The translations under genes were made by a program, and so were the position numbers. Of a stretch of 64,000 nucleotides of DNA, positions 1-57,322 are shown piece after piece (position 1 is the stretch's first letter; every line of letters starts with the position of its first letter). Source of the DNA: Heterotrichella gracilis (lineage: Eukaryota; Sar; Xanthophyceae; Tribonematales; Xanthonemataceae); assembly GCA_032358255.1 (NCBI GenBank), contig JAULBX010027827.1:62001-126000 (forward strand), given 5' to 3'. The notes under the pieces are model-generated. The model worked only from the letters and a program-made list of their open reading frames with translations, made no database searches and had not been told where the DNA came from.

Positions 1-278
1 TCGTGTGTCATTCAGATGAAATTTTGGGTTGTACTAAATCCAGCATGCCATAGCCGAACTTCACCAGTATCATTGGACCATTCGCTTGGTGTCAGCAGGT
101 TTGTGGATTAAGTCTGTCGCGTTACCTGCGTTGCACTTGCGCAGCCAGATCAGCAGTCAGCTCTGCTCAAGTGGTGCTCTTATGCGTCAAGTCTCTCACC
201 CCCTGACGCCCAAGCTAAAATTCCAACATTACAGCACCTGTGCATACAAAAGGCACTAAATTCATCATTCCTGTGCAG

Positions 279-26525: not shown

Positions 26526-29500
26526 TCAGCATGTCTGCAGCGTCGCTGACCCACCAGCAGCCGGGGGGCCCTGCGCGGTTCCAAACAGGTCCAGGCAGGC
26601 GTCTCCCAGTTTGGACATGAATGCAACCAGCTCCCGTTCCTTGGTGCTACCAGGGTCGCCTGGGAAAGGCGCTGCAGCACGACTTCCGCTGCCAGTGGGG
26701 AGGGCACTGCCTGCCACCTGGGGTTTAGTCAGGGGCCTGCGACAGAGGAAATGCAAGTGTTGGGATTGCGACCTGCTGGCCAGGACATGGTCGCTGTGTC
26801 GGTATCCTACTACACAGTGCACTGCACACCAATTGGCAACACATTGGCACATAATTACTACATGAACATACTGTATGTGACCACCAAAATGAGCTGGTAC
26901 AAGCGTTCCAGCGCTGCTTTTTGAGAGACATCATTGGCATGCAGCTTACGGGTATCAGTTATTTTGTTTACAAACTGAATGATCCTAAGCTGCCCCAATC
27001 CTCTATGACAATCATGACACTCCACTTGCATTACATGAGATGCATCCAATACTGATGACCAGGCAGGCTACCCACCCGTTGCCTTTAGCCGATTGGGCCT
27101 GTAACTCCTTTGCAGCCCTGTCAATTGGGCACAGGCAAGTGGCCCGCTCCTGGTAGATTGGCAGCAGCCCCAGCCCGCAGCAGAGCGTGAGCAATCCGCC
27201 ATTGCTTTTACCTCCAGTGGGGTCTTGGATGTAATCTGAGCAGGACTCGAACAACTGCATTGACAAGTGTGCAACTCGGATCACCACTTTCAAGTCAAGC
27301 TCAACTTCGGAAGGAAGTTCCTCACGCTCCCCTGGACTAGAAACTTGAACTTGATCAGTTGCTATGTATACCTCAAAACCTATGGAGCACACATCCCTGT
27401 CCCATTCAAAAGCTGTGCCCAAACGCTCAAAATAGTGCTCAATGAAATGCTGCCCTGTCCTACCTTGCCATACATGTCCACCCTTACCTTGCTATACATA
27501 TCACTGCATTTGCTGGGAAGGTGTTCCAGTGCTGGTTGGTAGTACTCCAGTGGGTTGGCTTCCTGGGCTGGAGGGGCTGCCTCGGGAGCTTGTGGGGCCA
27601 TGGCTCCATTAGGCCCTGGATTGTGCTGCCCACTTGGGAGTACCTGCAAACATGTCATTTTGCTATTGAATGGCCATCGCGCCAGAAAATGACCAGGCAT
27701 GGCAATCAGGGGTAAATGCCATTGACACTGGGGAGGGGAGAGGTGGACAGCTCACTGAGTGATCACAATGGGTGAAGGGAAACGTGATGATGAGGGAGGC
27801 GAGGACGGAACCAAGATGATAAATAAAAATAACATTTCATATTTCATTTCACTCGAATTCCATATGTTCATCATGGCACCCTTCATGCCAATATGCCAGT
27901 TGGATGTATATGGGTTCCAATACACTGACCAAAATATGATTATTCCATGTTTGATCTGGCTTGATCTGAAATGCCAAGCTGTGGCTTAATTGCCAATAAA
28001 GCCTGGCCCTTACCTGGTCCAGTGGCTTCCCAACAAAGGCATCCAACTGGGGCTGAGTAAGCATGCCTGGCTGCAGCAGCTCGGTACATGCCCTGTTGTC
28101 AAACCCTGCCAGGTCCAACACCACGACACCCGTCACTCCTGCGCCATCCCAACCGTCAACACCAACAACAACATTTGTAGTATCCAAACATGTGGATGAG
28201 AGGGTGCACCACGGGTAGATGTTGTAAAAGTCTGTGCACATGTAACAGTGACTTACTGCGCTCGTTTTCAATATCATATTGGCAATGACAGCCTCTGCAA
28301 GTCAGACAGTCAATTGAACAAGATGTGACCCTCAAATAAGAGTCTAATGATCGTTGCGCTGCAGCATTTGGCAGGCTTGCCAATTAGAAACCCATTTAGA
28401 TCCTACAGCAATTGGCAGGCTTGCCAGTTGAAAAATAATCCTGCATTTCCATGACTTGCAGGTCAAAGCGCACCAAAGTAGTTGTCTGAGGCGTCATAGG
28501 TTGCTGTTGCCCGCAGGGCCTGGCCTGGCAACACCCTGTAGGGTTCTGGCTGCAGGTCGTTGGTCATTTAAACCAGGTAGCCCTTCTCGTCCCCTGGCTT
28601 CTGCGGCGTGGTACCATATACCCTGCATGACTCGCATATGAGGGTGTCTGTGTCCAGGTCATACATGCGCACAAACTCCCCACCTGCACAGGTCTGGAAC
28701 CATACACGACAGGCCCAAAAACACCCCACCACAATCTTAAACAGGCGTGTGAGTGTTACAGTATATAGGGACGAAGCAGCATCCTCAAGGTGTCCTTTAC
28801 TTCAGCTGCTAGTGGGTGGTGTCCAAAATGTGCCATTGACAGTGCTACAACTTTGGGTCAAGTTGGGTACGTAATACACATTTCAATTCCTGTCAGGTCA
28901 TTTAGAACCAACCAGACCCACAGTTGGTTGAGCCAAGGCTACACATTTTGGAAAACAGAGAGTAATGTGTCACAGCCACCCACCTATGTGAAGATGGCCG
29001 AAGCAGCCCACGATGGTGTAGGGTTTTCCCTGAGGGCATTGCTCATCCAGTGACACCTCCAGCTCGATAGTGTTGTTTGCTCCAGGACCAATCTTGTAGA
29101 CGTCATACTCAGTAAACCCCCTGCCGCCTGATCAGCAAAGCACCCCGGGTGAATGGTGATCAGTGTCCAGCAACAATCTTATTTAGCAGCGTATTCTTAC
29201 TAGTATGACCCATTTGTTGGAAGCAAAGAGGTCAACTGAATATTTCAAGTACAAGCCGATCTGCACATGCTGGATGCAGTACACTAAAAACCGCCGACAA
29301 ACAATTATTGCACCATTGCGATATGGTCGTATTCGAAGCAAAAACAATGCGCTGTGAACAGTGCACACTATGTTGCTAGGAAATTCCATTTAATGATCAT
29401 GTTTGACACCTCAGAAAGCATAATAATGCTGCTGCACCTGCAAGGAGCCCCTTTCAGAACAGCATGGACCCCGTACTCTAGTGAGTACTAGAAAAACAAG

Positions 29501-32500
29501 CAATTCCATCGGGAAAACCCTAGCAAGGGATGCCATACCTGGCACATCAACGATGAAAGGCGTGACTGGTTTCAGAGCCTTGTCCATCACAGCATCCGCC
29601 AGGCGGTACCGTGAACTATAACGCAAGAAGTAATCCTTGGGCTGTGCAAACCCAGGGCCTGCCAGGGCTCTATCGACTGTGCAATTTCTGGCGCAGAAGA
29701 TTGACCCCCCTGCCATTTTTGTATTGGTGCCCTGGCACCAGCACTCAATACAGGGCTTGAGGGCAAATGGAGGCACATCCAGGGTATTTATGAGGTGAAG
29801 ACTGCCACGGCTGTAGGCACATGGGAGGGCACGTGAGCAATCCAGCACTAGCACTGTCTAGGGAATATGCATGGACCACCAGGTGGAGCACAAACCAAAA
29901 TGGGAAGACATATCTTCACGCCTTCATGGGGTGCACATCTGCATGTGGAACACTGACCGCCAGTTTGGCTGTATTGCTGCATTGAAAGCAACTGACTGAC
30001 TGCAATCATCATATGATACGTCTGGTGTGCACATCCTTCAACCAAATAACGGCAACGCACCTTGAAGTGACTAATTCTGTGATGGCTGAGACGTTGTAGA
30101 CGTAGGCAAACGGGGGCGGCAGTATAGGATAGTGACTGGTGCCTCTATACTCGGCATTCACAGCAAGAGTTACTTTACCCAAACCATAACCATGGTGGAT
30201 GTAAACCTGTGGCAAAAGAAAGCTGAGTAACAATGCTACTCCTCTCAAGTAGCTTGGGCAAAGGCACTGGGAGTTGTATCAGTTCCCATAGTTTAGTGGG
30301 AAAGTGGGCAAAGGGCCATTCTAGCTCACGTGACGCGGTATAGCGTGTATTCCACGGAGCCTGCTGCACGAGATTACAATGCTGCTCTCGTAAAGGTACT
30401 CAAATCACACACCCATGGTCAGCAAGGGTCATTTTCCGGAAGCAAACCCAGTCCCACAAAGTACACACCAGGAAGACTTTAAAACATGACAGGTCTTTCA
30501 AACATATATCAGGTCTGGTATGTGTCATATGGGGGCCCTCATGCCACATGCCAGTCTAAAATTGGGGACCTGAGCTCTGCACCCGCCTCCCCAACTTTAA
30601 ACTGGTTGTACCATGGCATTGCCAGGTCATACCTAACTTATAGGCCAGGTAGTAATGGTGGCTGGTGGGGGTTACGGTTGTCCTGTACAGCATCACCTGG
30701 ATGTCAACCTCCAATATACTACACAGGCTTGGGCTTCACTGCATGCGCTCACCTCTGAGAGCGGCACATGCCTTCCATCAGCATCCACCATATCCACAGC
30801 CATTGCCCTAGAGGTGGTCACCAGGGCGCCGTCTGGTAAGGGAATAGCAATGAGCAGGTTGACAATGACAATCTGTAATGGGAAAGGCATAGCATTTCAG
30901 CCAGTGCTCGTCTTCATGCACATGAACAGAGTAGGAACTCAATACTCAGTAGTCTATATTGGATGCGGATATCATGAGAGTATGGACATGACATTATATG
31001 GTAGGCTACAATGGCTTTAATCATCTTGATGCAACTAACAGGAATGATATTGCATTTGATTCCACGCAGCTTGGAACTGTGTGCACAAGCTGGTAAAACT
31101 CTCCGAGGTGTGATGAGATCACCACGACTGGACAGATTGTGGCACACAAGAAATATGAATGAACATTTTGTTCCTACATCCCTGCAGGACACAGTTTTGC
31201 TGGCAGACGCACATCACCAGGAGCCAGCGGTATCCTCCCCGTGGTGCAGGTCATCTCCCACTCCTTCTGTACATGCTGTCCCTCTAGTGACTCTGCAATG
31301 ATTGCTCTTCGTACAGCCATAGGGGACATGCAACTAGCTGGCTCGGACAGCAGCACCGAATTGCTGAGTGGCTGGGCGATGGAACCCTTAGGCCCAGGGG
31401 GTTCCCCTGCATGGAGGCAGCTGCGTGTTAATGGCCTCGTTATCATGGACCTTGCAAATCCCCAACAGGACCTCTGATATATTGCAAGTTTGGCAAATAA
31501 TTTTGTTATATTTTTATTCGAATATTTACTCTATAGTAAAAGCGAATAATTGTTAGCTAGTATTGCAAAAATGATCTTGTAAATGGTACAGCGCCAAGAG
31601 CAAACTGCTCAAAAGCCAATGGCGCCACCAAAATAAACTAACTTGGTCAAAGTGATGTTGGTTGGAGCGCAGTTGAATAAAGTAATCTGCAGAATCTCCA
31701 GGAAACATCACGCGGCGCGCACGATCTGCAAGTATGACAATGAATCCGGCAGGTGGTAGGGGCACCCAGGGAATTAGCCACCTCCAAGGCTGCCCTGTTT
31801 CATCTCCACCTCTTCCTCAACCAACACCCCATCTATTTTGTATAACAATGATGTATGTAGTTCAGATAAATGTGCATGTCTAAATCTGGCAGCAGCCTAG
31901 CAGCGCTAAGCCGTTGACAGCGTGCACTTGGCCAACTGCTCTCAAACCTGCCATTCCCATTGGCTTATCTAAGATGCCAGTTGCTAGCATCTATAGGTGC
32001 CAGCATTAATCCACCACAGAATTCCTTGGAGTGCATCCCCACCCACCTTGCGGCTCTCCAACCGTTACACTCAGCAGCATCCCCGCCAGGCAGTGCGCCC
32101 CCTTGGACACCCCACAGGCAAAGTGGAAGGTACCCCTCTTGGTGAGTGTGTAGTTGAAAGGGGTGGAGTAAGCATTAGCTAGCATCCGTGCAGCGCCATC
32201 AAACCTGCAGTCAAAGCCACCCACTTGCACCCGCGAAACAGCGACCTCCAGGTCCGACGCAACGTGGTCAGGTGTAAGGCCAGGTCAGTTTGCTGTTTGC
32301 TGTGCAGGGAAGGTTTGGACTAGCAGGTCAGAATATGTTTGCTGGAAGATGTGTGGTGAGCAAAATAACGTGTCACTGGCTGACTTGCAACCTCTGTAAA
32401 CAACCCATGGTGCATGTGTGTCCGACCTGCAGCCTTGGGTTGAGGGTATGGGGTTTAGGGACAAGCCATGGTGCATGTGGGTCCGACCTGCAGCCTTGGG

Positions 32501-33057
32501 TTCAGGGCTTAGGGTTAAGGGACAAGCCATGGTGCATGTGTGTCCCACCCGCAGTCTTGGGTTTAGGGTTTAGGGTTTAGGGACAAGCCATGGTGCATGT
32601 GGGTCCGACCTGCAGTTTAGTGTGAAGAAGCCATGGTGCAAGTGTCACTGCCCAGGCCTGCACTGCACCAACAAGCTATGGTGAATGTGCAACTGACCTG
32701 CATACTGGTGCGGGGAGCAGCCACACGTCGTGAAAGCCTGTTGCCCAGCTGAACACCTGCAGAGGAACGTGGCCACGGGGAGGGACGTTGGAAACAAATG
32801 TGGCATCCCAGTAGCGATCCCACTCTCACAAACTAAGTATTGGTGATATCCATATGGACCAACCACGGCCCGTGGCACGGGCAGTTGAGTCTCTTGAAAC
32901 TTACCAGAGTATCGCCCATCTGTAAGCTGAAGGGTGACAGTGGGGACCCTATCTCCCACCCCGCAGCACCCCCAACGGCGATGGTCCTGCCGTATACGCG
33001 CGTGCAGAGGATGCTGGTGAGCACCAAGGCAACAGCAACAGTCCATCGCAGCGCCAT
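26526..33057 (-). pseudogene. array copy A: cupredoxin-SURNod19-LTP-like gene with a premature stop
   Basis: Thirteen exons: 33057-32905, 32756-32698, 32204-32047, 31406-31213, 30872-30753, 30206-30061, 29810-29539, 29127-28984, 28683-28474, 28138-28014, 27643-27488, 27254-27076, 26736-26526. All borders are GT-AG and the sum is 709 codons in frame. One TAA interrupts exon 9 at 28570-28568, where the other copies have Glu in G-Y-L-V-E-M-T. Two further changes hint at relaxed selection: the Met of the predicted copper motif G-V-M is Thr (exon 10), and a conserved Cys in G-G-E-C-V-R is Phe (exon 9). The cupredoxin ligands, the HH, single His and HxH of SURNod19, and all eight C-terminal cysteines are still present. 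It is a young pseudogene, or makes a truncated secreted protein. Confidence 0.8.
32395..32700 (-). repeat. echo array of the exon 2 donor end with telomere-like spacers (copy A intron 2)
   Basis: Four to five copies of a unit that includes AAGCCATGGTGCATGTG and GACCTGCAG (the reverse of the exon 2 end plus donor) lie in tandem. They are separated by GGGTTTAGGG-type repeats, best at 32560-32582. The genuine exon 2 end is at 32698. Copies B, C and D have only the single real border. Confidence 0.75.
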
Positions 33058-34338: not shown

Positions 34339-37300
34339 TCAGCATGCCTGCAGCGCTGCTGACCCACCACCAGCCGGTGGGCCCTGCGGGTTTCCGACCA
34401 GGCCTATGCAGGCATCTCCCAGTTTGGTCATGAACGCAATCAGTTCACGTGATGCCTCGATGCTCCCTGGTTCAGGAGAAGGCGCTGCTGCACCGCTTCC
34501 AATGGGAAGGGGACTGCCGGCCAACTGGGTTACCAGGGTTCCAGTTGGTGGCCTGGGACGAAGGGAAGGGCAAACACTGTTAATCTGATTATCAATCAGG
34601 AATGGCCGCTGTGTCAGCCTCCTAGGAAGTGCATTGCATACGGGCTGACAACACAATGTACCCATTCTATGCGAATGACAAACTGCGTCGGTACAGTTGT
34701 TGCAGCACTACTTCAAAGAATTGCCACTGGCATGCAGGTTATTTTCACATGCTGCACCAACCTCTGTCCTGACACTCCGTTTGCATTACATGGGATGCAT
34801 CCAAAACACATGCCAGCCAAGCAACTCACCCGTTCCCTTCCTCCGACTTGGCCTGTACTCCGCTTGCAGCATACGCAATTGGGCACAGGCAAGTGGCCCG
34901 CTCCTGGTAGATTGGCAGCAGGCCCAGCCCGCAGCACAGCGTGAGCACTATGCCGTTGCTTTTGTCGCCTGTGGGGTCCTCCGAGGCAATGTAGTCCGAG
35001 CACGAGTCAAACATCTGCGTGGTCAAGGTGATCCAAGTGAGCTTGTTGCTCCTTAATCCCCTCAATGGCTTCCTGTGAGCAAAACACTAGCCTACCACCA
35101 TCCATCATACATGTAACCTCGTGACAATACATGAAGCGCATTATACCATGGCGTCCTCGTCAGTGCAGTTGTGGTACATCATGCATTGCACTGCAGAGAA
35201 ACTGTCTGCTATACGTTCAAGGCCTTGCTGCACAGCCTGCGCTCTGGTCCCCAGCCTCAGTAGTGAGGCCTGATGAACCCTTGCCTTTTCAAGTCTGACA
35301 TCATGATTTGCAATTATATTTGGTGGTGGTAAGCCTTGCCATAACTGATGACGGTCATACAAAAAGCAGCACACAGCAATGCCTAGGAACATGGGTCAGT
35401 TCCTCTATGACATGCATATGTGTTTGGCGAAAACGGCCTGGACTCCACTCCTCTTACATACATCCTGTGGAATATCCCCAGAATCTGTGGGTTGGGCAGC
35501 TATACACTCAACATGGTCTACAGTATGTATGCCCAACGCTTCTGCTGCTCAATGCCATCCTGTCTGCCCTTACCTTGCTGTACATGTCACCGCATTTGCT
35601 GGGAAGGTGTTCCAGTGCTGGTCGGTAGTACGCCACTTGGTTGGCCCCCTGGTCTGGAGGTGCAGCCTCAGGAGCTTGTGGGGCCATGGCTGGGGCTGGG
35701 ATGGTGTCTTTGCCACCTGGGGATGCCTGCAAACAGAATAAAAGTTTTTCTTTTAGTTGTTTTTCAACAAATCATAAAGATTTCTGAACTTTGTATTATG
35801 TATTTTTGGAGCGTTTTCTGGTGTTAACGTGACGTCACGGCAGTGATCATCAGGCATAGAAACAAGGCATCAACCCCAGGGCCTGCCAGGCAAATCACCA
35901 CCACTGAATAAGCAGCAAGGAATGACATATCCACACTCTCTGATGTCGCCATGGACAGAAACACAAATTGTTGTTGGAAGGACGAGGGGAGGAAGCAAAG
36001 TTCCATGGCAGTTATGACTCCCTCTGGCAGCCAATGCCATTTTCTGGGCCCACAAAGAATAAAACATCCATGTTTTATGTTGAGCTACCAATGCATTGAT
36101 CCAGACTCCAAGTTGTCAATCTGGCCTACCGTGCCAAAGATGTATACCTGGCCATTACCTGGTCCTGTGGCTTGCCAACATAGGCATCCCACTGGCGCTG
36201 GGTGACCATGCCTGGCTGCAGCAGCTCCGAGCAAGCGCTGTAGTCAAACCCTGCCAGGTCTAGGAATGCTAAACCCATCACCCCTGTGCAACGGCAACCA
36301 CCAACATCAACACGATGGCTCAGAACAACGTTTGCAAGGCGCATCCAGCACGCGAATGGTTGCAACAGTTCGCATGGAACTGTGACTCATTGCCGCAAAT
36401 TTCGACAGGCTCAAAAGGGTGTCATCAGGGTCTGCAAATGAGTCAGTCAAGTGAGAAAGAATCTACCCTCAACCCTTGGACCTTCAACACGGTAGCTGTG
36501 CAACCCTGTGTACCCATGATATCCTGTCAGCCATGTGACCACTTAATCCCCAGTCCTGAAACATGCAGGTCAAAGCGCACCAAAGTAGTTGTTGGAGGCG
36601 TCATAGGTCGCTGTAATCCGCAGCGCCTGGCCTGGGGAAACGCTGTAGGGTTCTGGCAGCAGGTCGTAGGTCATTTCAACCAGGTAGCCCTTCTCGTTTC
36701 CAGGCTCCTGTGGCGTGGTGCCGTACACCCCGCATGACTCGCATATGAGGGTGTCTGTGTCCAGGTCAAACACCCGCACACACTCTCCACCTGCACAGGG
36801 TTGGTGGTGTAAACCATACAAGACAGGCCAAAATCATGCTTTGAAAATGTTTTGGAGCACAGGCAATTTAACATGTGCTGAACGCACTACACCTCCAATA
36901 AAAACTCCATGTGGTGCAGTGCTGGCAGTCTGTACTCAAGTTTGGCATGAACACTGGAGATAGGCAGGTAGGCTGCCAACTTTTCAGGTAATCATTTCTG
37001 ACTGGAGGTGAGTATTTCAAACGTTAAAGAGGATGGCTACAAATTCGGCCAAACTGAAAACAAGGACACAATTTCTTTCCTGCAGGGCAGTGAGAATATA
37101 CCCACATTTGCACAAGCCAAGGCTGCAAAATGTGGAGTTCAGAGAGTAATGGTTCACAGCCACCCACCTACGTGCAGATGGGCGAAGCACCCCACGACGG
37201 TGTAGGGTTTGTCTTGAGGGCACTGTTCATCCAGGGACACCTCCAGCTCAATAGTACTATTAGCTCCCGGACCAATCTTGTAGATGTCATACTCAGTAAA

Positions 37301-40300
37301 ACCCCTGCCACCTGACAGCACAGTACCCAAATAGTAATCAGAGTACAGCGACAATGTAATCAGCAAGCAAAAGCACATGCACATGCGGTCTGCAGGTGCT
37401 GGACGCAATACACCAACCGTCGCGGGCACATAATTGCACCACTATGGTTCTGAGATGGCCATGGTGTAGAGTTGAGAAAAAAGTGCTTTAAACAGTGCAC
37501 ATTACATTACTGTGTATGTAGAAACGACACCTCAGAAAGCATATAATGCTGCTGCACCTGAATGGAGGCTTATTCAGAAACAGCGTGGACCCGTAGTGAG
37601 TGCTCACAACATGTCAAGCAATGCCACTCAAAAATCCCTAGCAAGGGGCGCCATACCTGGCACATCAACAATGTAGGGCGTGACTGGTTCTAGAGCCTTG
37701 TCCATCACTGCATCTGCCATGCGGTACCGCATACTGTAGCGCAGATAGTAATCCTTGGGCAGTGCTTTCCCTGCCAAGGTTCCATTGACTGGGCAATTTC
37801 GTGCACAGAAGATTGAGCCCCCTGCTTTCTTTGCATTGTCGCCATGGCACCAGCACTCGATGCAGGGCTTGAGGGCATATTGGGGCACATCCAGGGTGTT
37901 TATGAGGTGGAGGCTGGCACGGCTGAAGGCACAAGGGAGGGCACGCGAGTGATCCTTCGTTCACTATACAAGATGGCATATGCATGATCGAGCGCAAAAC
38001 AACATGGAGAGGAAAAAAGGGGTGCATATCTGCTTGTTCAAAACTGATTAGTCATGGCTGTACTGCTCTTTAACATTAACCATTGTATGATGTGCCTGGT
38101 GTGCAATTCTTTTATCAATAACACCAGCGCACCTTGAAGTGACGTAATCAGCCATGGCTGAGACGTTGTAGGCATAGGCATACGGGGACGGCAACAGTGG
38201 ATAGCGACTGACGCCTCGATACTCGGCACTCACCGCCACTCCACCCAAAGTAAATCCATGGTGGATGTAAACCTGTGGCAAAGCAAGGATAGTAATAAAG
38301 CTATTTCTTTCACTTAAACTCATGCAAAGGCATTTGCGGTTGTAGAAATTCCGTATACATAAACATTTTAGTGGGAAAGTGGGCAAAGACCCATTCTGCT
38401 CCACATAACAAGATATGAGATGTATCCCACGAAGTTTGCTGCGCCATGTACTATATGGCTCTCGCAAAGGAGCTCAATCACGCATGGTCAGCAGGAAACC
38501 CACCTTTATAAATATAACCTCTGTGCGTTCCCTTTCTTTCTTTCTTATAAGAGTACACGGCAGGACTTAAAAGACAAGACATGATATTTATTAAGGAGGC
38601 GGTTTGAAGCTCAGGTCCCCATGTCGACTTCTTGGACCGCTTAAGTTCTAGGCAGGTAGCAACGGTGGCTGGTGGGGGCCCTGTACACCATCAGCTAAAT
38701 GTCCACATCCATTCAACACCACAGGCGTGGGCCGCGCTAGATGCGCTCACCTCTGAGAGAGGCACGCGCCTTCCATCAGCATCCACCATATCACCAAGGA
38801 TTACCCTGGAGGTGGTCACCAGGGCGCCGTCTGGGAAGGGGATAGCAACAGGCAGGTTGACCACTACATTCTGCAATGGGAAAGGCATAGCACGTCAGCA
38901 ATGGCCTTTATGCAAATAAAGGCTGCATTTACTGCATATATCATGAGAATAAGGTCACGCCATTGCATAATTCGATGCAGTGACCTCAACCAGCTCGGTA
39001 CAACCAAGGGATGGCATTGGATTTGCGTCTACAAAGCTTGGGGCATTGACCACTGTGTACAAAGGCTATTGAGACCCTCAGGAATTGACAACTTGTGGCG
39101 CTCAAAACAAACCGCATTTGATTCCCACATCGCTGCAGGACACAGTCTTGCTGACAGACGTACATCACCGGGTGCCAGCGGTATCCTCCCTGTGGTGCAA
39201 ATCATCTCCCACTCCCCCTGATACTCTGGTCCTTCTGCACCTCCTTGCACAGCCACTGGGGCCATGCAAGTAGAAGGCTCGGACACCACAACCGAATTGC
39301 CAAGTGACTGGGTGCTGGGGCCCGCAGGCCCAGGGGGTGCTCCTGCATTAGGGTAGCTGCGTGTTAACAAACATCCTTTAATTAATGGTCCATGAAGTAT
39401 CATGAACCTTGTACAAACCCCACATAAAAACCCCAGCAAGACTCCAAGTGGTGCGAGATTGACAAATAGTACAAACAACACCAGGATGGAACTGCTCCGG
39501 AGCCGATGGCGCCGCATTTGCAAGCGTGACTGCTTATCTGGCTGCATGAAATCGATACTGCTGTGAGCCAGCCGAAATTAACCAACTTGCAAAATCTCGG
39601 AAGTACATAGCACGCGGCGCACACAACTTGCAAGGGTGACAATGACCCCGAGCACGTGTTGATTTAACTAGTCCAAGGCTGGCCCTGTCTCATCCCATCA
39701 CTTCTGGGCGATGTTGACCCTCTGGTTAACCAACACCCCCTTTGTATGACTAATATGCTGTACTTCAATAGCAGGCGTATCAAAACTTTGCTGCAGCACA
39801 GCAGCGCTAAGCCATTGGCAGAGTGCACCTGGCCGACTGAGCCACCCACGTATGTCCTCGTGGTCTGCAGTGGCTCAGTCAGTGGATGTAAGCACCAAAT
39901 CACCACCAAGTTAACCAAGCATCCCCCACCCACCTTGTACCTCCCCAACCGTGACACTCAGTAGCATCCCTGCTAGGCAATGCGCCCCCTCGGACACCCC
40001 ACAGGCAAAGTGGAAGGTCCCCCTCTTAGTGAGTGTGTAGTTGAACGGACTGGAGTAGGCGCTAGCAAGCATTTGTGCAGCGCCATCAAACCTGCAGCCA
40101 AAGCCACTCACTTACGCCACCAAACCAACGACCTCCACATTCTCAGGTTTGAGGCCAGGTAAGTTCGCTGTTTGCCGTGCAGGTCAGATGAGTGTGCTGG
40201 GAAGACATATCTCCCACTCACATATGTTGGGCTGACTTGAAACTGCTGCATATAAGCCATGGTGCATGTGCCAGTGCCATGCTTATGCGTACTCTAGTAT

Positions 40301-40906
40301 GCACAAGTCACGCTGCGTGTGCCACTGACCTGCAGTCTGGTTTGGGGAGCAGCCACACATCATGCATGCCTGATGCCCAGTTGAACACCTGCACAGGGGA
40401 ACGTTGGACAGGGACGTTGGAAACAACGTGGCACCCCAGTATCACTAAACATTTCCTGCACCCTCGAGCAGCTGCTGCTGCTTTGGGTGCAGCCCAGGCC
40501 AGGGTTTACGTAGGAGCCCACACTAGGTGAATCACAGGAGGTGATCAACAGCGCAGTTCTTGCTACAAGGCTGGATGGTGAAGCTTGAGTTAGTCTTGAC
40601 CTCAACTACCAACACCTCAGTTGCCAACGCATGGTACAGCCATCCGTCCTGCCTGCCAACAAACACGCCTCCCCCCCACCTCCGGCTACCCACAAACTAA
40701 GTATTGGTGCTGTGTGGACCAAGCACGGGCAGTTGAGTCTTCTTTGGACTCACCAGAGTATCGCCCAACTGCAGGCTTAAGGGTGACGGAGGGGACCCGA
40801 TCTCCCACCCCGCAGCACCTCCCACGGCGATGGTTCTGCCGTGCACGAGCGTGCAGTGGATGCCGGTGAGCACCAAGGCAAGAGCACCAGTCCATAGCAG
40901 TGCCAT
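34339..40906 (-). CDS. array copy B: secreted cupredoxin-SURNod19-LTP-like protein (intact)
   Basis: Exons: 40906-40754, 40388-40330, 40091-39934, 39342-39164, 38870-38751, 38272-38133, 37922-37657, 37311-37168, 36790-36581, 36283-36159, 35726-35574, 35014-34830, 34552-34339. Phases match copies A, C and D. The product is 701 residues with no stop. Residues 1-23 form a signal peptide. The cupredoxin part has G-M-H-D-V-W, then A-C-G-V-S-E-G-A-H-C-L-A-G-M, giving His, Cys, His, Met ligands. The SURNod19 part has Y-I-H-H (227-228), S-L-H-L-I-N (His275), F-A-H-L-H (403, 405) and G-V-M (Met479). A Pro/Ala linker leads to eight cysteines in the C...C...CC...CxC...C...C order of lipid-transfer proteins. 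It is probably secreted or wall-bound and copper-dependent; the reaction is unknown. Confidence 0.8.
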
Positions 40907-42901: not shown

Positions 42902-45900
42902 TCAACATGCTTGCAAAGACGCCGACCCCTTGGCGGCCGGGGGTCCCTGGATGACATCGCTGTTTCCAAACAGGTCCAGGCACGCATCTCCCATACGGCC
43001 CATGAACTCCAAGAGCTGTGCTTCGATGCTGGAAGATCCACTGGGTGAGGGGCCAGTGGCAATGCTATCCCCAGGGGAGGGGCTGGCAACCATCTTGAAT
43101 GCAGCTGGTTGCCTGTCATAACAAGGGGATTAGCCTAGCAAAATGTGAGGTTGAATCATGAAGAAGGGCCGTGTCTTATGTGCCTTGCAAGCCAGCATGC
43201 TCCTGCAGGCTACGAATCTTAAGCTAGGAGTACCCACTAGGCTAGAAGTACACAAGGTACACACTGTACTGCACAGACCTCGTACTAAGCAAAGGCAGGT
43301 CAATTGTATGCTATGCCAGTCCTGGCATGATGACAATAGCCAGGTTGGGGCTGAACTGCACAGCCTTAATAATCCATTCACTGCAACATGCGAAACCAGT
43401 CAGTAACGGTTGGTAAACTCCCGGCACTTCCAATTCCTCTGAATGGCATGCATCAGCCACAAGCCTCCCCAACCCACCCATTTGCTTCTGATTGGGCCTG
43501 TACTCCCTTTGCAGCGTACGCAATTGGGCACAGGCAGGTGGCCCGCTCCTGGTAGATTGGCAGCAGCCCCAGACCGCAGCACAGCGTGAGCGCAACCGCG
43601 TTGCTTTTGCCCCCCAAAGGATCTTCGATGTAATCGGAGCAGGAATCAAACATCTGCATTGGCGGTATTGCGGAGGTTAAATGCAGCCTGATTTGGTTTT
43701 CTATCTCTTCCCCATAATTTGCAAATGTTTGCTTGTATCAAATCAACCACCGGCTATCTCATATGATAATTGCTGAAATAACCAGAAAAGAAAAAACAAC
43801 CGCGACAAGAAATGCAAGGACTGCAGCAGGTGTGGTATACCCTTTGATGTCGATAGACAGAGTGATAAAACTTTACACAAAGGAATATTTATGCCCTGGC
43901 ATAGTTATGTCTTTGCCACCCTTTGAACGCATTCAAATACCTTCCCTTACCGTTGCATACATAGCACCGCATTTTAGGGGGAGGTGAGCCAATGCTGGCT
44001 GGTAATAGCCCACTAGACTGGCTCCTGGTGCTGGAGCAGCAGCAACAGGAGCTCCTGCCGCATTGTCCCCACCTGGACCTGGGGATAACTCTGGGGGGGA
44101 TGCCTGCAAAGCTGTTAATTTTAGAAAGACGCCAATGACTGAAAACATAGCAACCAGGTGTAAATCCTGATGTGCGGTCAAGTACATTGTTACCCATTGA
44201 GGTACAGGGACAGGCATACCTCCTGATGCAACGATGTCAAGCCAAGATGAGGATAGGGACATCTGCCATGGTCATACTTTGATGCCAAGCCACAGACTAC
44301 TTGTAGCTTCCATCCCTTGAGTCCTAAAAGGACAACCCTTGGAAGCCTGGTCCCTACCTGTTCCTGTGGGTTGCGAGCAACAGCGTCCCACTGCAGCTAC
44401 GTTACCAGCCCAGGCAGCAGCATATCAGGGCAAGCCCTGTTATCAAACCCTGCCAGATCCATCACTGCAACAGCCATCACCCCTGCGCAATGCCAACAGA
44501 AGCATCAGCAATTGCAGTGCTTGGCAGCGAGGTGCATCCACAGGTTGTGTCACCGTATTTTGTTGCAGACTAAATAGGCATCGGAGTGTGCTGTAGTTAT
44601 AGAGTTTGCAACTACTGTAGGTGATTTATAATGCAGCTGTTGTACCCATGATGCCATGCTGTTGTGTTATACAATACATGCCTGAAGAGTGGCAAAGGTC
44701 ATGCGCTCTGGGAAGACTGCACATGCAATGCACGCAATGCAGCCTTATTGGCTTGGAAGCCCTGTTAATGATCATGCCATTCGTTATGTGGTCTTTGTTT
44801 TACACCACTTGTGTAGTTGCAAATTCTATTTAATTTCGTTTCAATTCATTAAGAGGTCCGGGCCTTGAACCCATGCAAGCCTGCTATGCATCACCACATG
44901 CCGATTACACATGAACCATACACACAGTAAGGGTAAAAGCGCACCAAAGTAGTTTTCCAAGGCGTCATACGTTGCTGTCAACCGCAACGCCTGGCCTGGA
45001 AGAACCCTGTAGGGTTCTGGCAGCAGGTCGTAGGTCATTTCAACCAGGTAGCCCTTCTCGTTCCCTGGTTCTTGTGGCTTTGTGCCGTACACCCCGCATG
45101 ACTCGCATATGAGGGTGTCTGTGTCCAGATCAAACACACGCACACACTCCCCACCTGCACAGTGTTTGCTGGTGTGAACCATACAAGACAGGCCAAAAAC
45201 TACCTCGCTTGAACGCACTCTCTGCACGGCATTGTTGGGATCAAATTATAAGCAACTAGCACAACAACCTTTCAGGACTTTTGGCAGTTATTCCAGGGAA
45301 ACAGAAGTACCAAATCGCAGAAAACTTTCATTGTAGCCCGGTATGAAACTTCCTGTATTATCACATGGTTACACACGCAGCTCTTAGAAGGGATTCAGTA
45401 ACATCCGCGGGATTGGCCTGGGATCCAAGACCATGCAGGCAACTTGAAAAGCTGAAACCCAGCGTTGTTATTACCCATAGCTTCTAATAAATTTTCAACA
45501 TTCACTCAGGGAACCATTCCACAAAGGAAATTGATGCAACACGTTCATTTACATTCACAATGCACACACGCACCAAACATTACAGGCTGCAAGATGCATT
45601 GTTAGGGATATCCTATACACATATTTTTCCAAACGTTCTCAGAAGATTTACCTATGTGAAGATGGCCAAAGCAGCCCACGATGGTGTAGGGTTGCTGTTG
45701 GGGGCATTGTTCATCCAGTGACACCTCCAGCTCGATGGTGTTGTTTGCGCCTGGTCCAACCTTGTAGACGTCATACTCAGTAAACCCCCTGCCGCCTGAT
45801 CAGCACAGGATCAACAGTAATCAGTGTACATTTGAGAGAATGAATGTGCATTACTTGTAAATTCGGTTGCCTATTATTGGCTTGGCTGCAGGTTCACAGC

Positions 45901-48900
45901 CTTGAAACACATGGTGTACCAACGCACACATTGTTGTTGGATTGTTGCACGACGAGGTTGGGTGGTGCAGCAACAGTTATGGGAATGGCGACACTCAAGT
46001 TGAGAAATTACGTGAAGCCAAACAACGGCTCGATCATGTGTACTACGTCGATTTGACAATGCGTTGCCTGTTACTCCTGTGCCTGCTGCAGCAGGAACAT
46101 CAGGTGATGGGGCAAGATCCTGGCAGTGGGCAGGCAATTGCAGCAGTCTAATGCTGATGCCGATTGCAATGATTGGGCAAACAGCACCAATGCAGAGGCA
46201 AATTGTAAGCACCGATGTGACCTTTGAGATGAGACTAGCATGTACATGAGCATGCTATATGGTGGACCCTCGCAAGGGTTATCAAATCCATACCTAGCAC
46301 GTCAACAAGGAAGGGTGTGACTGGTTCCAAAGCCTTGTCCATCGCAGCATCCGCCAAGCGGTACCGTGTAGTGTAGCGCAGGAAATAGTCATTGGGCTGG
46401 GTAGACCCTCCCAATGGTCCATCAACCGTGCAATTTTGGGCACAGAAGATTGAGCCTCCTGCCCTCTTTTTGTTGTCGCCATGGCACCAGCACTCGATGC
46501 AGGGCTTGATGTTACTTGGCGCCACATCTATGGTGTTTATGAGGTGGAGGCTGGCACGGCTGTAGGCACATGAGAGGGCATGTGAGTAATAATTTTCCAT
46601 GCCACAAGGGCACCATAATTCATGTTTGGATGTGACTGAGAAGCCATATGGATGCACCATCAGTGCAACAGTTCATGTTTCCCACACTGTGCGTTGCAAG
46701 ACTCTTACGATAATCATTGTTGGTACTATGAGCTCATTTATGCACGACTGCATGCGCATGACATGCACATCCTTCAACCAATCAAGCAAAGCACCTTGCC
46801 GTGGCATAATCCTTGATGGCTGAGACGTTGTAGACGTAAGCAAACGGAGGTGGCAAGGGAGGGTAGTTGTTGATGCCTCGGTACTCTGCATTGAGGGCAA
46901 CTCCGCCCACACCAAATCCATGGTGAATGTAAACCTGTGGGGCAAGCAAGGAGGGGCCCTGTACTCAGTGAACATTGCCCTTGCTTGAACTCCTCTCAAT
47001 CACATGACTTGGGCCAAGGGCGCACAGGTCGAATGGTTTGTAGCCTAAATAAAATATAAGTGTGGGCAATTGTTTTATAGAAATCTGGCTACAAATGTCT
47101 ACGTCATCCGATTCATGAAAAAGATGGAAAAATGAGCTTATAGTGTCACAATTGTTACTGACAGTGACAATGCTAACAACTGTTGCTCAATTGTGGGTAC
47201 CATTGACCGCCGTGACAACTGACCCAACTGGAACCAACAAGAGGCCCACCTTTGCAAATGCTTATCATGATGGACCATAAAATGACAGGAATATTTCAAA
47301 AACTTTCACTTCAGCTCCACAGCAATACCGCACTGGTAACGCTCACCTCAGAGAGCGGCACTTGCCTTCCATCAGCATCCACCACATCAAACATAATGGG
47401 CATGTCCATGGTGACCAGCGCAACATCTGGGGAGGGGATGGCAAGCGGCAGGTTGACCACAACGTTCTACAGTGGAATAAAGGCATGTAAGCATCGCTGG
47501 TTGTGCACATGACAGGGATTGGTGGTTTGGCCCAAATAACTTTCTGATGCAAGGAATTTGTTAATAAAATAATAATTTACTTACTATGTTGATCAATGTT
47601 TAATTATCAAGTAAATGTCAAATAAATGGTAATTGACACCATGATACATGCCAGCATTTTGTATATCTTGCTGTGTACCTCCATTCCCAGCAGAGTTTGC
47701 ATTCTCAAGTTGGTGAGAACCTCAAAGGCTTGGACCACTGACTGGACAGACCTTTAAAATTGTAATACACAAGATGGCACCCAAACACATTTGTCTGAGC
47801 AGCACTGGAAACAGGTAAACATGCTGACACACGTACTTCACCCGGACCCAGCGGTATACTCCCTGACTGACAAGTAATCTCCCACTCCCCCTGCTCCTGC
47901 AGCTGGTTGCGCTGGGCTTGATCACGTGCTCCCGTTGCCACTTGTGGCACAGGAATGGGTGGTAGACAATTGGCAGGCTTGGTAAGCAGCAGCGAGTTAT
48001 TAAAAGCAGGTGCCTGGGTGGTGGGGCCCTCGGACGGCAAGAGCTCACTATGTCCACCTGCAATGAGGCAGGTGGATGGTGATAATCACGTCATTGCTGC
48101 AAGAAAGTTGCAAAAGGTTTGCCAAGATTGTCTAGTAGAGCGGGGTAGTGCACCATGTAATGGTAGCTGTGCACCTAGGCTGGAGGTAGGGATACGCAAG
48201 GGAATAACCAACCTCCAAGGTCGCCTCGGTCACTGTGTACGTAAGATGAGGCGCGTACCTGCCTATCTGGATCTGGCTGCACCATAAGTGAATGAACATG
48301 GACTGCATGCGACTGCAACTGAGCAACCCATGTCTAAGAATTGTCCTACAAAGACAGTTCTCTGATTGAAGGACTTGGATGTATGCATCTGCCCAAAGCA
48401 CCTTTCCTAGCACACTTTCCTAGAGCGCTATATATATGCACGCATCTCCACCCATGGGACTCTATAGGGGCCATACAAGTGCGCCATGTGCATGCACCTA
48501 TGTACCACATGCGAGCATCGCCACCCACCTTGTGGCTCTCTAACCGTTACACTCAGCAGCATCCCCGCCAGGCAGTGCGCCCCCTTGGACACCCCACATG
48601 CAAAGTAGAAGGTGCCCTTCTGGGTGAGGGTGTAATTGAAAGGGGTGGAGTAGGCGTTAGCAAGCATCCGTGCAGCGCCATCAAACCTGCAGCCAAAGCC
48701 AGTCAATTGCATCAATGAGCAAAGCAGTACCTTGGGTAATTACTTATAACAGTACATTGAGGGTGTATATGGTAGGGAGAACAGGAGAACTTTTCACGAA
48801 ATCCTCTTTCTAATCAATGCGCCTGTTCAAGGATAGTCTGCGTCGGGTTGTTTTTGTTTTTTTGTATAGGGGGTATCATCAGGGTCTGGCACACAGCGAC

Positions 48901-50938: not shown

Positions 50939-53900
50939 TCAGCACGTCAGTGCCTGCGATGTTAATGACCCACTGGCACCCGGGAATCCCTGTGCGTTTC
51001 CAACCAATCCCAGGCACGCATCTCCAATGCGAGCCATGGTCTGCAGGAGCTCAACCTCTATTCCCAAAATGCCACCAGGGGATGGCGCAGTGGCAGTACC
51101 TGCTCCAGGGAGAGGACTGCCAGCCTCCTTGGATGTAGCTGACTGCCTGTGGGAAGGAGGGCAGCAAAGTTAAGAACAGCCTGCCAGGTACTACCATGTT
51201 GCGCAAGGCAGCAAGCTGTGCTTATGGAATGTCTTTGTGTTGGTAAACTGTTTACGGTTTAGGGTTACATTATAATGTCAGCAGGCCTGCGCCTCCTACA
51301 CAGGTACACCTTGGGGACCACGGGTACATGCAGCCACAGGTCTGTTTGCACTGGCGCCCACAAGCAGCCGCACAGCGCTTGCGCATACATGTCCAAATAA
51401 TAATACGTCACATGCATTTGCTGCAGCAAAGTCTGACTGTTTACAAATCTTGATTTGTCCAGTCACTAACTGCAGGCTGCTCATTGCATTCATATAACTC
51501 AGATGTCTCTCGACAAGTTCTGAAGCCTGTGCAACCTACCCATTTGTTGCAGCTGCTGGGGCCTGTCCCCCATATGCAGCTCGGTCAATTGGGCACAGAC
51601 AGGTGGTTCGCTCCTGGTAGATGGGCAGCAGCCCCAGAGCACAGCACAGCGTGAGGTCAAGCCCAGCGCCACTGACTTGGTTCCCCAATGGGTCTGCTCC
51701 AAAGTACTGGGAGCATGAATCAAACATCTGCAACAAGGATGTAGTGGTAAAATTAGTAAACAGGAGGGCAATGCATTTCTCTGTGTTAATTTCCTCTTTG
51801 TTATGTCCCCTTCCTTAACCAACACGCCTCTGTAAGGACAGGCTGCATTGTTTGAAGGTTGTATTTTTATTTGCATCCAGAGTTATGCAAGTGGCTTCAT
51901 TTCTTGATCACTTGCTTGGGATCATGTCCCTGTTGAATGCAAAATTGCAAGAAGCCAGCTTCCCACAAGTCCAACTCTGTGACAGAGTCTGACCCCTATC
52001 ATGACTGGGGAGTAAAAAATATAATCACAATCTGCAACATCATGCAACTTCATGGAACCCCTGAGGGCACCTACACATTTGCCACTCAGATAACCGTTTT
52101 GCAACCCAATTGCATCCTTCCCCTTACCTTGCCATACATGTCGACGCAGGTGGTGGACAGGTTGACCAGCGCAGGTTGGTAGTACCCCTCTAAGCTGGCT
52201 CCTTTCGTTGGAGGGGCTGCCTCAGGAGCTTGAGCAACCATGGTCCCACTAGACCCAGGACCGGGGACTGGGGTGCTGCCTTGGGAGGATGGATTCAAAG
52301 CCTTCTAGAGAAGACAAACAACAACAAAAATATGAGTAAGAAGCATGGTAACCAGGCATTTCTACCCAGCTGAAGCATTCGAGCAACTCAGTTTACTGAG
52401 GCACGGTGTGTTGAACATTGGGTACTTTGTTTATACACAGCAAGGCTCATGGGGCATCCAGTTGACTGCACTAATCCACGCTGCGCGCAAGACTGCGGTG
52501 CCTCAGGGAAAGCCTTACTCTACAATGTCACTGGCATCAATGACGTAGGTTGAAGCAGATGCACAACATCTGAGATACTGAGGGAGGCAGAATGTGTGGA
52601 AATGTGGATGGTTCCTTCCAGCCGCGTAATGTGCTTGACAATGTGACATGTAATGATGCATATTCATGCCTGGCTGATGCTTACCTCTTCCAGTGATGTG
52701 CGCACAACACCATCCCACTGACGCTGAGTCACCACTCCTGGCTGCAGCAGCTCAGTGCAAGCGCTGTAGTCAAACCCTGCCAGGTCAATCAGCACGACAG
52801 CCATCACCCCTGCAGAATTGCCATGACCAGCATCAGCAACAGGAACATTAATCCACGGCACAGACAAAGATGCCTCAAGTCACAATGCGTCCACCATTCA
52901 TTGGTGTGCATATAATATAGACTGCTTACCAGACAGTAAGCAGTGGCCATTATAATCTAGCCTGCTTTTCGTCACTGGGACACCCCAAAATTCAAGATGC
53001 ACAGCAGAACACCCAGACACACTACAGGATGGCCGTTTGCAATTTTTTGGTTGACACTTTGTTTCAATGGCCTTGATGACTCCACACCATACATACCCTG
53101 CCCATGCTGATGCAGTCCAAAGTCAAACAAATTTGCAAATCTGGGTTCTTATGGACCAAGCGCACCAAAATAGTTGTTTGAGGCGTCATAAGTTGCTGTC
53201 ACCCGCAGCGCCTGGCCCGGCAAAACCCTGTAGGGTTCTGGCAGCAGGTCGTAGGTCATTTCAACCAGGTAGCCCTTCTCGTTCCCTGGCTCCTGTGGCG
53301 TGGTACCGTACACCCCGCATGACTCGCATATGAGGGTGTCTGTGTCCAGGTCGAACACACGCACACACTCCCCACCTGCACAGTGTTTGCTGGTGTGAAA
53401 CAACAACAACAACAAACTGAAAGCTGTGCTGTCTGTTCTTAAACAGGTGTGTGGTTCAGGCAGAGGAGATTGCAAGAGGATGCAGTGCCCTATCAATGGT
53501 GTTGGAAAGGTGCGTCCCTATCGATAGCCATTGATGAGCCATGCTGGGACAGTGATTAAAATCCTCTCAGGCAGGATTGCATGTTTATGGGGTAGTCAGA
53601 ATGACTGTGACAAGGGGTTACCTCTTTCTACCCACTCACACTTCAAAGCACGTACAGAAAGCATTGTCTTCACAGTAGCATGCATCGCAACATCGCAAAG
53701 GCCTCACCTATATGCAGATGGCCAAGGCAGCCCACGATGGTGTAGGGTTGCTGTTGAGGGCATTGTTCATCCAGTGACATCTCCAGCTCGATGGTGTTGT
53801 TTGCGCCTGGACCAACCTTGTAGACGTCATACTCCGAGAAACCCCTGCCACCTGATGAGAGCAGATATCAGTTTTTCAGATTTCAGTTGTAGTGTACATC

Positions 53901-56900
53901 ACCAGCTTTGGCCAGCAATTGTATGTAGCCAGCTCTCATGTATGACAGTAGAAGCATATCTCACGTATGACACTAGAAGCAGCTGCACTAGAAAGGGGTT
54001 CATATTGCATCAGGTGCACTGTGCATTGTAAAGCTGCAGGGCATTTTGCTTGCTTGACGAGCATTGCGATTGCGATTTCCACTTGCTCTGCAGGTGATCA
54101 TCATGATCGTAATTGAGAAACAAAATACGTAAGTGCGTTGGATACTAAAAAAGGATACCAAGATCCATACCTGGCACGTCCACAATAAAAGGCGCAACAG
54201 GCTTCAGAGCTTTGTCCCTCACCGCATCTGCCAAGCGGTACCGTGTACTGTAGTGCAGGAAGTACTCCTTGGGCTGTGCAAACCCTGCTAGGTTTCCATC
54301 AACTGTGCAGTTTTTGGCGCAAAAGATTGAGCCCCCAGCCTTACTCGCATGATCGCCCTGGCACCAGCACTCGATGCAGGGCTTGATGTTACTTGGAGCC
54401 ACGTCCAGGGTGTTTATGAGGTGGAGACTGCCACGGCTGAAGGCACATGGGAGGGCACGTGAGTGATCGGCCAAAATAGGCAGTAAGTGTGCTTCAGCTC
54501 ACATACAATAGATCGAGCACATCATACCAGAGCAAAGCCTCACTGCGGCAATGCCATGCAATGAAAGCAATGTCGTGCAAAAAAAAACATTTTGAGATGA
54601 CTCAGAGTAGCCATAATATGACAAACATGCAGGGCAGACAAGTGTCCAGCCTGAGGTATGTAACATATATAACATGTGCATGCATCAATGGTTTATCAGT
54701 GCAAGGTGTCCTTCACAGGCCGTTCCCTCAGCAGGCCCACCAGCATGACATGCGTACATATCCTTTCACCAAAAACGGCAACGAACCTTGAAGTGACAGA
54801 TTGCTTGATGGCTGAGACATTGTAGACGTAGGCAAACGGGGGCGGCAGCGGAGGGTGGTTCTTGATGCCTCGGTACTCAGCATTGAGCGCAACCCCAGCC
54901 ACACCAAATGCATGGTGAACGTAAACCTGTGGGCCAAGCACATGCTACATGTCAGCTAGCTGTCAAGTTATGATTGCCGCAACTGACCTCACCAGTGGGC
55001 CCCAACCACCAGCAGGCCAAATGATGATGGGCCCCACCCACCAGCTGCCAAGCGATGATGCAGTTTGCAGCTGCAGCTCACCAATAAGCTCCAACATCCC
55101 ATTGCATATGCAAGATCAACCATGATGTCAGATGGAGTCCAGTTTGGCATGGCTGGAATATACCTATTAGACCTTGACTAATTACAAAGCAATACCACAT
55201 TGGTAATACTCACCTCTGAGAGCGGTACAGGTCTCCCATCAGCATCCACCAGGTCAAACGAGACGGCTCTGGATGTGGCGACCAGGGCGCCACCTGGGTA
55301 GGGGATAGCAAGTGGCAGGTTCACCACAACGTTCTACAGTGAAAAACACATGCATGTCAGCATCATGTCAGTATCATACACTGGATGTTGATGCACAAGA
55401 ACCAGAGGTGGATTTAATTCACAAGAATGTTAGACACAGGTGCGATATTTAGATACCACATGACATGTTATGCGCAGAAACAAGTCCACCTCCAAGAGTG
55501 TAGAATGCTTTGCATCCTGCAACAGCCTCCGTCTGTTGCAATTATGTTGCATGCGGCAGGAAAAGTATTATTATGGTGTTCAAATTGCGCTTTAATCACA
55601 ACGCTTGGGTCACACCCGCCGAGGTCCGATCACCAGAGCCAGATCCACGTGGATAAGCCGGGCCATTTGAACGAATGACTTCAAAACACAGCACAGCAAT
55701 GATTGTGAATGTATTTGTATAGGAACCCTTTCTTGCAAAATGTTACTGTCTTGCTTGCTGACAGACGCACCTCACCGGGAGCCAGCGGTATCATTCCTGT
55801 GGTACAGGTCATCTCCCACTCCTCCTGGTCAAAGAGTCCCACTGCAACTCGTTTGGGGGCCATACAACTAGCAGGCTCGGAGAGCAGCAGTGAATTGGAG
55901 AGCGGCTGATTAATGATTGCCTCGGCGGGGGAAGCAGGCCCACTGGGTCCTCCTGCAATGGTCCAGATGCACTGTCGATAACCTATACAGCTTGTAGACC
56001 TTGAGCCGCAGAAAATGTGCAAGGGTTGCCTCTGGTAGAGCTAAGTGGCATGAGCACAGTGTGCAATGCTCTAAACGCCTGGTGTCCTCCAGCTGACTAA
56101 ACTTTTGGATAGGCACTGGCGATGATCCAGTCCCCACCGCCCAAGGCCGCTGATCTGATATTCAATCCAGATATTTACCCAGAGCAAAATATTTGATTGC
56201 ACCCACCTTGTCCCTCCCCAACCTCCACGGTGAGCAGCATCCCAGCTAGACAATGCTCCCCCTTGGACACCCCGCAGCCAAAGTGGAAGGTGCCGCGCTG
56301 GCCGAGCGTGTAGTCGAAAGGGGTGCCATAGGCATTGGCAAGCATCCGCGCAGAACCGTCAAACCTGCAGCAGAGCACGTCAGCTGCACATCAAGCAAAC
56401 ATTACTTTGAGTTACAAAAACAGTACACTAGTCCCCTAAACTTAGGGTATTTACAAGAGACTGGCTGGCACGGCGCAAAGCATCCAGTTGTCAGGGTCAG
56501 CTGAACCTGTCACGTGGCGCACAAAGAAGCCAAGCACGGACCCAGCGTTAGGCAGCTGTTGGCCACATGCATGCAGCATACACAAAGAAGCTTCTGTGTT
56601 GACCTGGATTTTCGCGCCAACCGGTGCCATGAATGACAGACCCACACTTCGGTTTAAACACACCAGGATGCGAGTATCAGTGACCTGTAGTTTGGTGTGA
56701 GCAAGTCAAGGTGCATGAGCCACTGACCTGCAGTCTGGCGCGGGGAGCAGCCACACGTCATGCATGCCTGATGCCCAGCTGAACACCTGCAAGACCCATG
56801 TGGCATGTGGGCACATTTGTGTGCAACGCGACTAGAGAAACCCTGCTACAACAACCCAATGGCAGCACAGGAGAAGTACAAGCAACAGGTTTGAACGCCC

Positions 56901-57322
56901 AGTTGCAACAGTTGTGCACATCGTGGAGGCACTGAGATGGAGGCGCTTACCAGTGGCAGTGCTGGTCCTTTTAATAACTATGCATACCGGTAACCGGCAA
57001 AGGGCTGGCTTGGCATAGTAAGTGACCCAAAGCCAGTGTATTACAACGATCCCAAGGCCAGTGTAGTGTGTACTGTTACTGTCTGGCAAGCGCTTGCATA
57101 TGCATGGTATATGGCATGGGCGGTCCACCCATTCCTGTCGTTGTCACCTCAAGGGTTTGTGAAGCTTACCAGAGTATCGCCCATCTGTAAGCTTAGGGGT
57201 GACAGTGGGGACCCGATCTCCCACCCCGCAGCACCCCCAACGGCGATGCTTCTGCCGTGCACGCGCGTGCACTGGAGGCTGGCGAGCACCAAAGCAACAG
57301 CAACAGTCCATCGCAGTGCCAT
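50939..57322 (-). CDS. array copy D: secreted cupredoxin-SURNod19-LTP-like protein (intact)
   Basis: Exons: 57322-57170, 56786-56728, 56364-56207, 55952-55771, 55333-55214, 54926-54787, 54436-54171, 53851-53708, 53375-53166, 52809-52685, 52304-52128, 51727-51540, 51146-50939. The product is 709 residues. A signal peptide covers about 1-23. The cupredoxin (about 24-122) has His60, Cys101, His108 and Met113; the Cys-x6-His loop is longer than the Cys-x4-His of plant phytocyanins. The SURNod19 part (about 125-490) has His228-His229, His276, His404-x-His406 and Met480. These can be laid over the CuH and CuM ligands of peptidylglycine monooxygenase, which is an inference. Cys572, 583, 606-607, 621, 623, 685 and 709 form the eight-cysteine pattern. 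I infer a secreted redox enzyme in which the cupredoxin feeds electrons to a two-copper centre. Confidence 0.8.

Follow-up and report, generated by a model that had tools for sequence, protein, structure and literature searches.

A four-gene tandem array occupies positions 26526-57322 of the window, the 64,000-nucleotide stretch of Heterotrichella gracilis DNA analysed here (GenBank assembly GCA_032358255.1, contig JAULBX010027827.1, positions 62,001 to 126,000). Self-comparison of the reading frames revealed four consecutive units, all on the minus strand. Exons were placed using alignments among the four copies together with canonical splice sites, and were then joined. Each of the four copies consists of 13 exons with one common phase series, 0,2,1,0,0,2,1,1,1,0,0,2. 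All 48 introns are of the GT-AG type, which is a consistency check and not independent proof since the borders were set at GT and AG, and their consensus is GTGAGT / CTCTGCAG. A TGA stop codon directly follows the final cysteine in 4/4 copies. The gene models are as follows:

Copy A, 33057-26526, minus strand: 13 exons, 708 codons, one in-frame TAA
Copy B, 40906-34339, minus strand: 13 exons, 701 amino acids, open
Copy C, 49816-42902, minus strand: 13 exons, 711 codons, one in-frame TAG
Copy D, 57322-50939, minus strand: 13 exons, 709 amino acids, open
Copy D, exons 1-7, minus strand: 57322-57170, 56786-56728, 56364-56207, 55952-55771, 55333-55214, 54926-54787, 54436-54171
Copy D, exons 8-13, minus strand: 53851-53708, 53375-53166, 52809-52685, 52304-52128, 51727-51540, 51146-50939

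The array of four genes with 13 exons and identical phases that the original prediction had described was thus rebuilt on the minus strand, and the limits given there correspond to the last base of the stop codon of copy A and the first base of the ATG of copy D. That prediction had named no strand and had missed the in-frame stops of copies A and C. The TAA of copy A lies in exon 9 (28570-28568), and the TAG of copy C in exon 10 (44399-44397), past the SURNod19 module. Reassignment of UAR stops to glutamine was ruled out, as all 53 glutamine codons in copies B and D are CAA or CAG. One cysteine that is kept in the other copies is now phenylalanine in copy A, which is a degenerating copy. No further copies were detected in the window, where the best tblastn match outside the array had an E-value of 0.11. 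The copper-response element GTAC occurs 18 times in the 4 x 1 kb upstream of the genes, against 3.6 per kb across the window, and no enrichment is claimed.

Several other features were observed in the window. An inverted repeat, recognized by opposite-strand self-matches, lies just past the 3' end of copy A, and intron 2 of this copy contains a 61-bp tandem repeat ending in units of TTTAGGG, the plant-type telomere motif. Together with the presence of phytocyanin and SURNod19, these units may point to the green lineage; the poly(A) signals TGTAA and AATAAA were not informative about lineage. Away from the array, an open frame that looks LEA-like by eye carries 33-bp repeats coding AKDTYNSAADK units, and its Pfam matches (Apolipoprotein, YtxH and ApoO) were all under the cut-off. 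An open frame of 459 codons contains roughly five repeats of 156 bp that code for LSLDDLDPGAFTCSLPQHFKELAPGLDIKEEF-type units, and it gave no Pfam match up to an E-value of 0.01. Neither Rfam families nor tRNAs were found when the window was scanned for them. The positions of these features are:

3406-4062, minus strand: LEA-like open reading frame
10022-10615, minus strand: FAD-linked oxidase exon (FAD-oxidase_C, 42 bits), perhaps a D-lactate dehydrogenase
19786-21165, plus strand: 459-codon open frame with repeats
22942-23442, plus strand: class-3 lipase exon (Lipase_3, 49.3 bits)
26112-26406: inverted repeat
32400-32615: 61-bp tandem repeat
59086-59880, plus strand: TLC-domain exon (TRAM_LAG1_CLN8, 27.3 bits, cut-off 24.6), past the 5' end of copy D

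The four copies are under purifying selection. With stop codons skipped, dN/dS over the six pairs was 0.33-0.38 overall, 0.18-0.25 for the cupredoxin, 0.26-0.33 for SURNod19, 0.31-0.52 for the eight-cysteine module and 0.23-0.73 for the two linkers. Pairwise dS over the whole coding sequence was 0.40-0.60, and the copies are therefore not recent assembly duplicates. The alternative that the modules are separate neighbouring genes, fused in appearance by models joined across intergenic DNA, is very improbable. It could draw on intron 3, the longest intron in copy A (640 bp) and in copy B (591 bp). Introns 3 and 10 nonetheless span 254-640 bp, shorter than the intercopy gaps of 1122-1995 bp (exon tables), and the phases match across the four copies. 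Reading through past exon 3 meets a stop after 13, 7, 33 and 10 codons in A, B, C and D, respectively, and past exon 10 after 54, 10, 55 and 6 codons; these distances differ from copy to copy, so neither module border has a conserved stop. The sole signal-like start seen by eye is also in exon 1. The phases, the constraint and the absence of conserved border stops thus support a single predicted transcript for all modules, as originally proposed.

The N-terminal module is a phytocyanin. Its positions in the two open copies are:

56223..57250, minus strand: copy D phytocyanin module, amino acids 25-118, exons 1-3
39950..40834, minus strand: copy B phytocyanin module, amino acids 25-118, ligand positions as in D

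When the domains were scanned in isolation (limit E 10), all four matched Cu_bind_like, copy B with an E-value of 1.1e-6 and 28.9 bits against a cut-off of 20.8. At full length, copy B (23.9 bits) stayed above the cut-off and copy D (17.2 bits) fell below it. The best PDB profile matches were umecyanin (1.6e-5), cucumber basic protein (5.4e-5) and mavicyanin (8e-5). The putative type-1 copper site, formed by H60, C101, H108 and M113, is present in 4/4 copies, as is a candidate disulfide pair, C70/C109. The type-1-copper-like domain that had been predicted can thus be named more closely, by both Pfam and PDB profiles. The VGG..GW start, the ligands and the paired cysteines are shared with umecyanin, cucumber basic protein, mavicyanin and plantacyanin. 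Known phytocyanins are stand-alone proteins or have AGP-like tails and GPI anchors, whereas the phytocyanin in the window is joined to a larger module.

Secretion is suggested by several features of the proteins. For the predicted signal peptide, a signal-like start is visible by eye, and the most hydrophobic 19-residue window is N-terminal in copy B only. Each protein has four to five N-glycosylation sequons and 21-27 prolines that follow an Ala, Ser, Thr, Val or Gly residue, a composition that fits with secretion but does not prove it.

The central module belongs to the SURNod19 family (PF07712), as the original prediction had held. Its core was located in all four copies, in copy A by homology:

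52772..55246, minus strand: copy D SURNod19 core, amino acids 214-490, putative ligands H228, H229, H276 / H404, H406, M480
36246..38783, minus strand: copy B SURNod19 core, amino acids 213-489, putative ligands H227, H228, H275 / H403, H405, M479
44445..47379, minus strand: copy C SURNod19 core, amino acids 227-503, putative ligands H241, H242, H289 / H417, H419, M493
28101..30785, minus strand: copy A SURNod19 core by homology, amino acids 218-498, H232, H233, H282 / H412, H414, T488

Copies D and B reached 59.6 and 72.4 bits, respectively, against a gathering cut-off of 25, and copy C, the third copy included in the scan, also matched SURNod19 at the limit of E 10. No PDB relatives of this module were obtained up to an E-value of 10. 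Searches of genome_contigs, viral_contigs and plasmids, run by tblastn or with sets of two to six short motifs and so liable to miss distant relatives, confirmed no relatives there. Comparison with land plants was made using a hand-composed SURNod19 consensus, which matches PF07712 across 328 residues with 581.7 bits. Between this land-plant (SURNod19/MtN19) consensus and the window copies, the HH, H, HxH and M residues and the cysteines of a CxECxC motif are invariant. The arrangement of modules differs. Arabidopsis NOD19 is described as a signal peptide, SURNod19 and a C-terminal hydrophobic helix (PMC10326430), whereas SURNod19 in the window lies between the phytocyanin and the eight-cysteine module, and no hydrophobic helix is seen by eye in the last 30 residues of the proteins.

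The C-terminal module, encoded in copy D by exons 11-13, has the following positions and cysteines:

50942..52148, minus strand: copy D eight-cysteine module, exons 11-13, C572, C583, C606-C607, C621-x-C623, C685, C709
34342..35594, minus strand: copy B eight-cysteine module, C563, C574, C596-C597, C611-x-C613, C679, C701

The order C..C..CC..CxC..C..C is kept in 4/4 copies and resembles that of the eight-cysteine (LTP / 2S albumin) superfamily. Profile matches to Pfam and PDB were not significant. LTP_2 was matched by one of the four copies (E 0.045), beside two unrelated families (E 0.052 and 0.094), and the PDB profiles gave napin (E 0.033) and pronapin (0.051), so that the LTP_2 and napin matches are at chance level. 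The distance from CxC to the seventh cysteine is 60-65 residues, far longer than in nsLTPs. Of the LTP-like domain originally predicted, the cysteine pattern is present and the fold is putative. The third module is the weakest part of the architecture, an eight-cysteine pattern and not a proven LTP; a lipid- or wall-binding role for it is putative, taken from the cysteine pattern.

The ligand set of the SURNod19 module suggested what kind of protein this may be. In an alignment of the hand-composed plant consensus with copies B, C and D, only five histidines are invariant (plant positions 9, 10, 96, 243 and 245), along with methionines at plant positions 284 and 318. They follow the order HH, H, HxH, and then Met (plant position 318) 73-74 residues on. 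The same ordered set, HH, H, HxH and M, is found in PHM and dopamine beta-hydroxylase (DBH), with the PHM residues H107, H108, H172, H242, H244 and M314 read off a PHM sequence identical to that in the PDB. In these enzymes HH and H form the CuH site, and HxH and Met the CuM site. The spacing from HxH to Met is 70 in PHM, 73 in DBH, 73 in the plant sequence and 74 in the window. The spacing from H to HxH is 128 in B, C and D and 147 in the plant sequence, against a shorter 70 in PHM. In the plant consensus, the order HH..H..HxH arises in 7 of 792 five-histidine subsets, and the full ordered pattern with Met at +70 to +74 arose in 9 of 20,000 shuffles. SURNod19 thus appears to carry the ordered copper-ligand set of PHM and DBH, a likeness newly noticed here. 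The window proteins differ from PHM and DBH in that no match to the profiles of these enzymes was found, in a longer H-to-HxH stretch with extra cysteines, and in a fused cupredoxin. All six putative dicopper ligands are present in B, C and D. Copy A is the sole copy in which the putative Met ligand is changed, to Thr (T488, window 28131-28133), and the stop together with the Met loss would fit an end of selection on the dicopper core in this copy.

Similarity beyond the ligands was measured against both enzymes, with PHM versus DBH as the positive control (z 10.71). With the ligands masked, the segment of the plant consensus around HxH scored z 5.72 against DBH, a value reached by 0 of 2000 shuffles, with 0.63 for the reversed control. 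The same masked segment did not resemble PHM (z 1.14), and the masked segments of the window copies resembled neither enzyme (z 0.37 to 1.78, three copies by two targets). Three unrelated pieces of copy D served as controls: two scored below zero against both enzymes, and the third, the eight-cysteine part, reached z 1.89 with PHM. For domain-1 pieces with ligands unmasked, the plant sequence scored z 4.0 (DBH) and 4.2 (PHM), and the window copies 0.91 to 2.63. Unmasked segments gave z 1.35-2.55 for the window and 1.96 for the plant versus PHM, and the segments between ligands gave -0.27 to 0.77 with PHM and 1.94 to 2.67 with DBH. In local alignments with DBH, the score was reached by 19 of 1000 shuffles for the plant, 48 for B, 442 for C and 523 for D; with PHM, it was reached by 374 to 926 of 1000. 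Profile-profile comparison with PHM and DBH using hhalign was weak (P 0.012-0.77 over nine pairings, and 0.23 and 0.045 in another comparison). Pfam gave no link to Cu2_monooxygen: at a limit of E 10, where its filters remove most weak matches, only SURNod19 was reported in the plant consensus and in B, C and D. The sequence case for a putative dicopper core therefore runs via the plant member, to which the window copies are tied by PF07712 and the ligands.

Taken together with the fusion, and with the regulation of a plant relative, these ligands make a copper-enzyme mechanism the most likely interpretation. The array probably encodes a secreted, disulfide-rich copper enzyme, with a SURNod19 core distantly of the PHM/DBH type, a phytocyanin as electron donor and an eight-cysteine anchor or substrate module. 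The original prediction, a secreted enzyme equipped with electron transfer of its own, was guesswork, to which the PHM/DBH-like ligand set now gives a concrete, if sequence-derived, basis. In the proposed mechanism, the N-terminal phytocyanin would bind type-1 copper, HH and H of the SURNod19 module would make up a CuH-like copper site for electron transfer, and HxH and Met a CuM-like site for oxygen activation. Ascorbate or a phenol outside the cell would donate electrons to the phytocyanin, which would pass them on to the dicopper core and so replace free ascorbate as the electron source. The C-terminal eight-cysteine module and the Pro-rich linkers may hold the enzyme on the wall or a lipid surface, or bring the substrate. 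Whether this extends to the family is a more tentative matter: chances fall a little short of even that the stress-induced SURNod19 family of plants as a whole belongs to the PHM/DBH dicopper monooxygenases as a branch so far overlooked, of which the window proteins would be a self-sufficient form with tethered type-1 copper and an eight-cysteine module for substrate or wall.

The regulation of the plant relative comes from common bean, where miR398b cleaves the Nod19 transcript (5/6 RACE clones), and the transcript is down in copper deficiency and up in copper excess, except in leaves (PMC3882225). Copper microRNAs are described as degrading cuproprotein mRNAs (PMC8430956), and miR398 also targets a blue copper-binding protein; the miR398 targets listed include non-copper genes as well, namely AGL genes and, as a potential target, APX6 (PMC9502370). 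A SURNod19 module that binds, buffers or senses copper without catalysis would show the same ligand conservation and the same copper-linked regulation, and the fusion would then serve as a secreted store of copper or as a redox shield, in which the phytocyanin supplies a second copper site. No report of SURNod19 catalysis was found, and the function of NOD19 was called elusive in 2023 (PMC10326430). Two sites, a Met at the DBH spacing and DBH-like surroundings of the plant HxH are, however, more specific than storage needs, and such a role is considered unlikely. That the histidines have a structural role or bind zinc, with no relation to PHM and DBH, while the phytocyanin only adds secreted redox activity, seems decidedly unlikely. 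It would agree with the masked window copies, which have no significant PHM or DBH similarity, with the missing Pfam link and with the weak hhalign result, but it sits poorly with the ligand order and spacing, the masked plant-DBH similarity and the miR398 regulation of bean Nod19.

No tie of SURNod19 to monooxygenases or phytocyanins was found in the openly licensed literature searched. A 2026 soybean Nod19 paper counts 24 SURNod19 genes, and a word search of its main text returned neither 'copper' nor 'monooxygenase' (PMC13355928); the 'monooxygenase' in PMC5894230 refers to a CYP listed in a table of genes. Stress regulates SURNod19 genes, and a genome can contain many of them. If the proposal is true, a role as secreted copper monooxygenases would explain why bean Nod19 is silenced by a copper microRNA, and would enable searches for substrates. 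A blue-copper domain naturally fused to a core of this kind would also be relevant to the route by which electrons are delivered to the copper sites of such enzymes.
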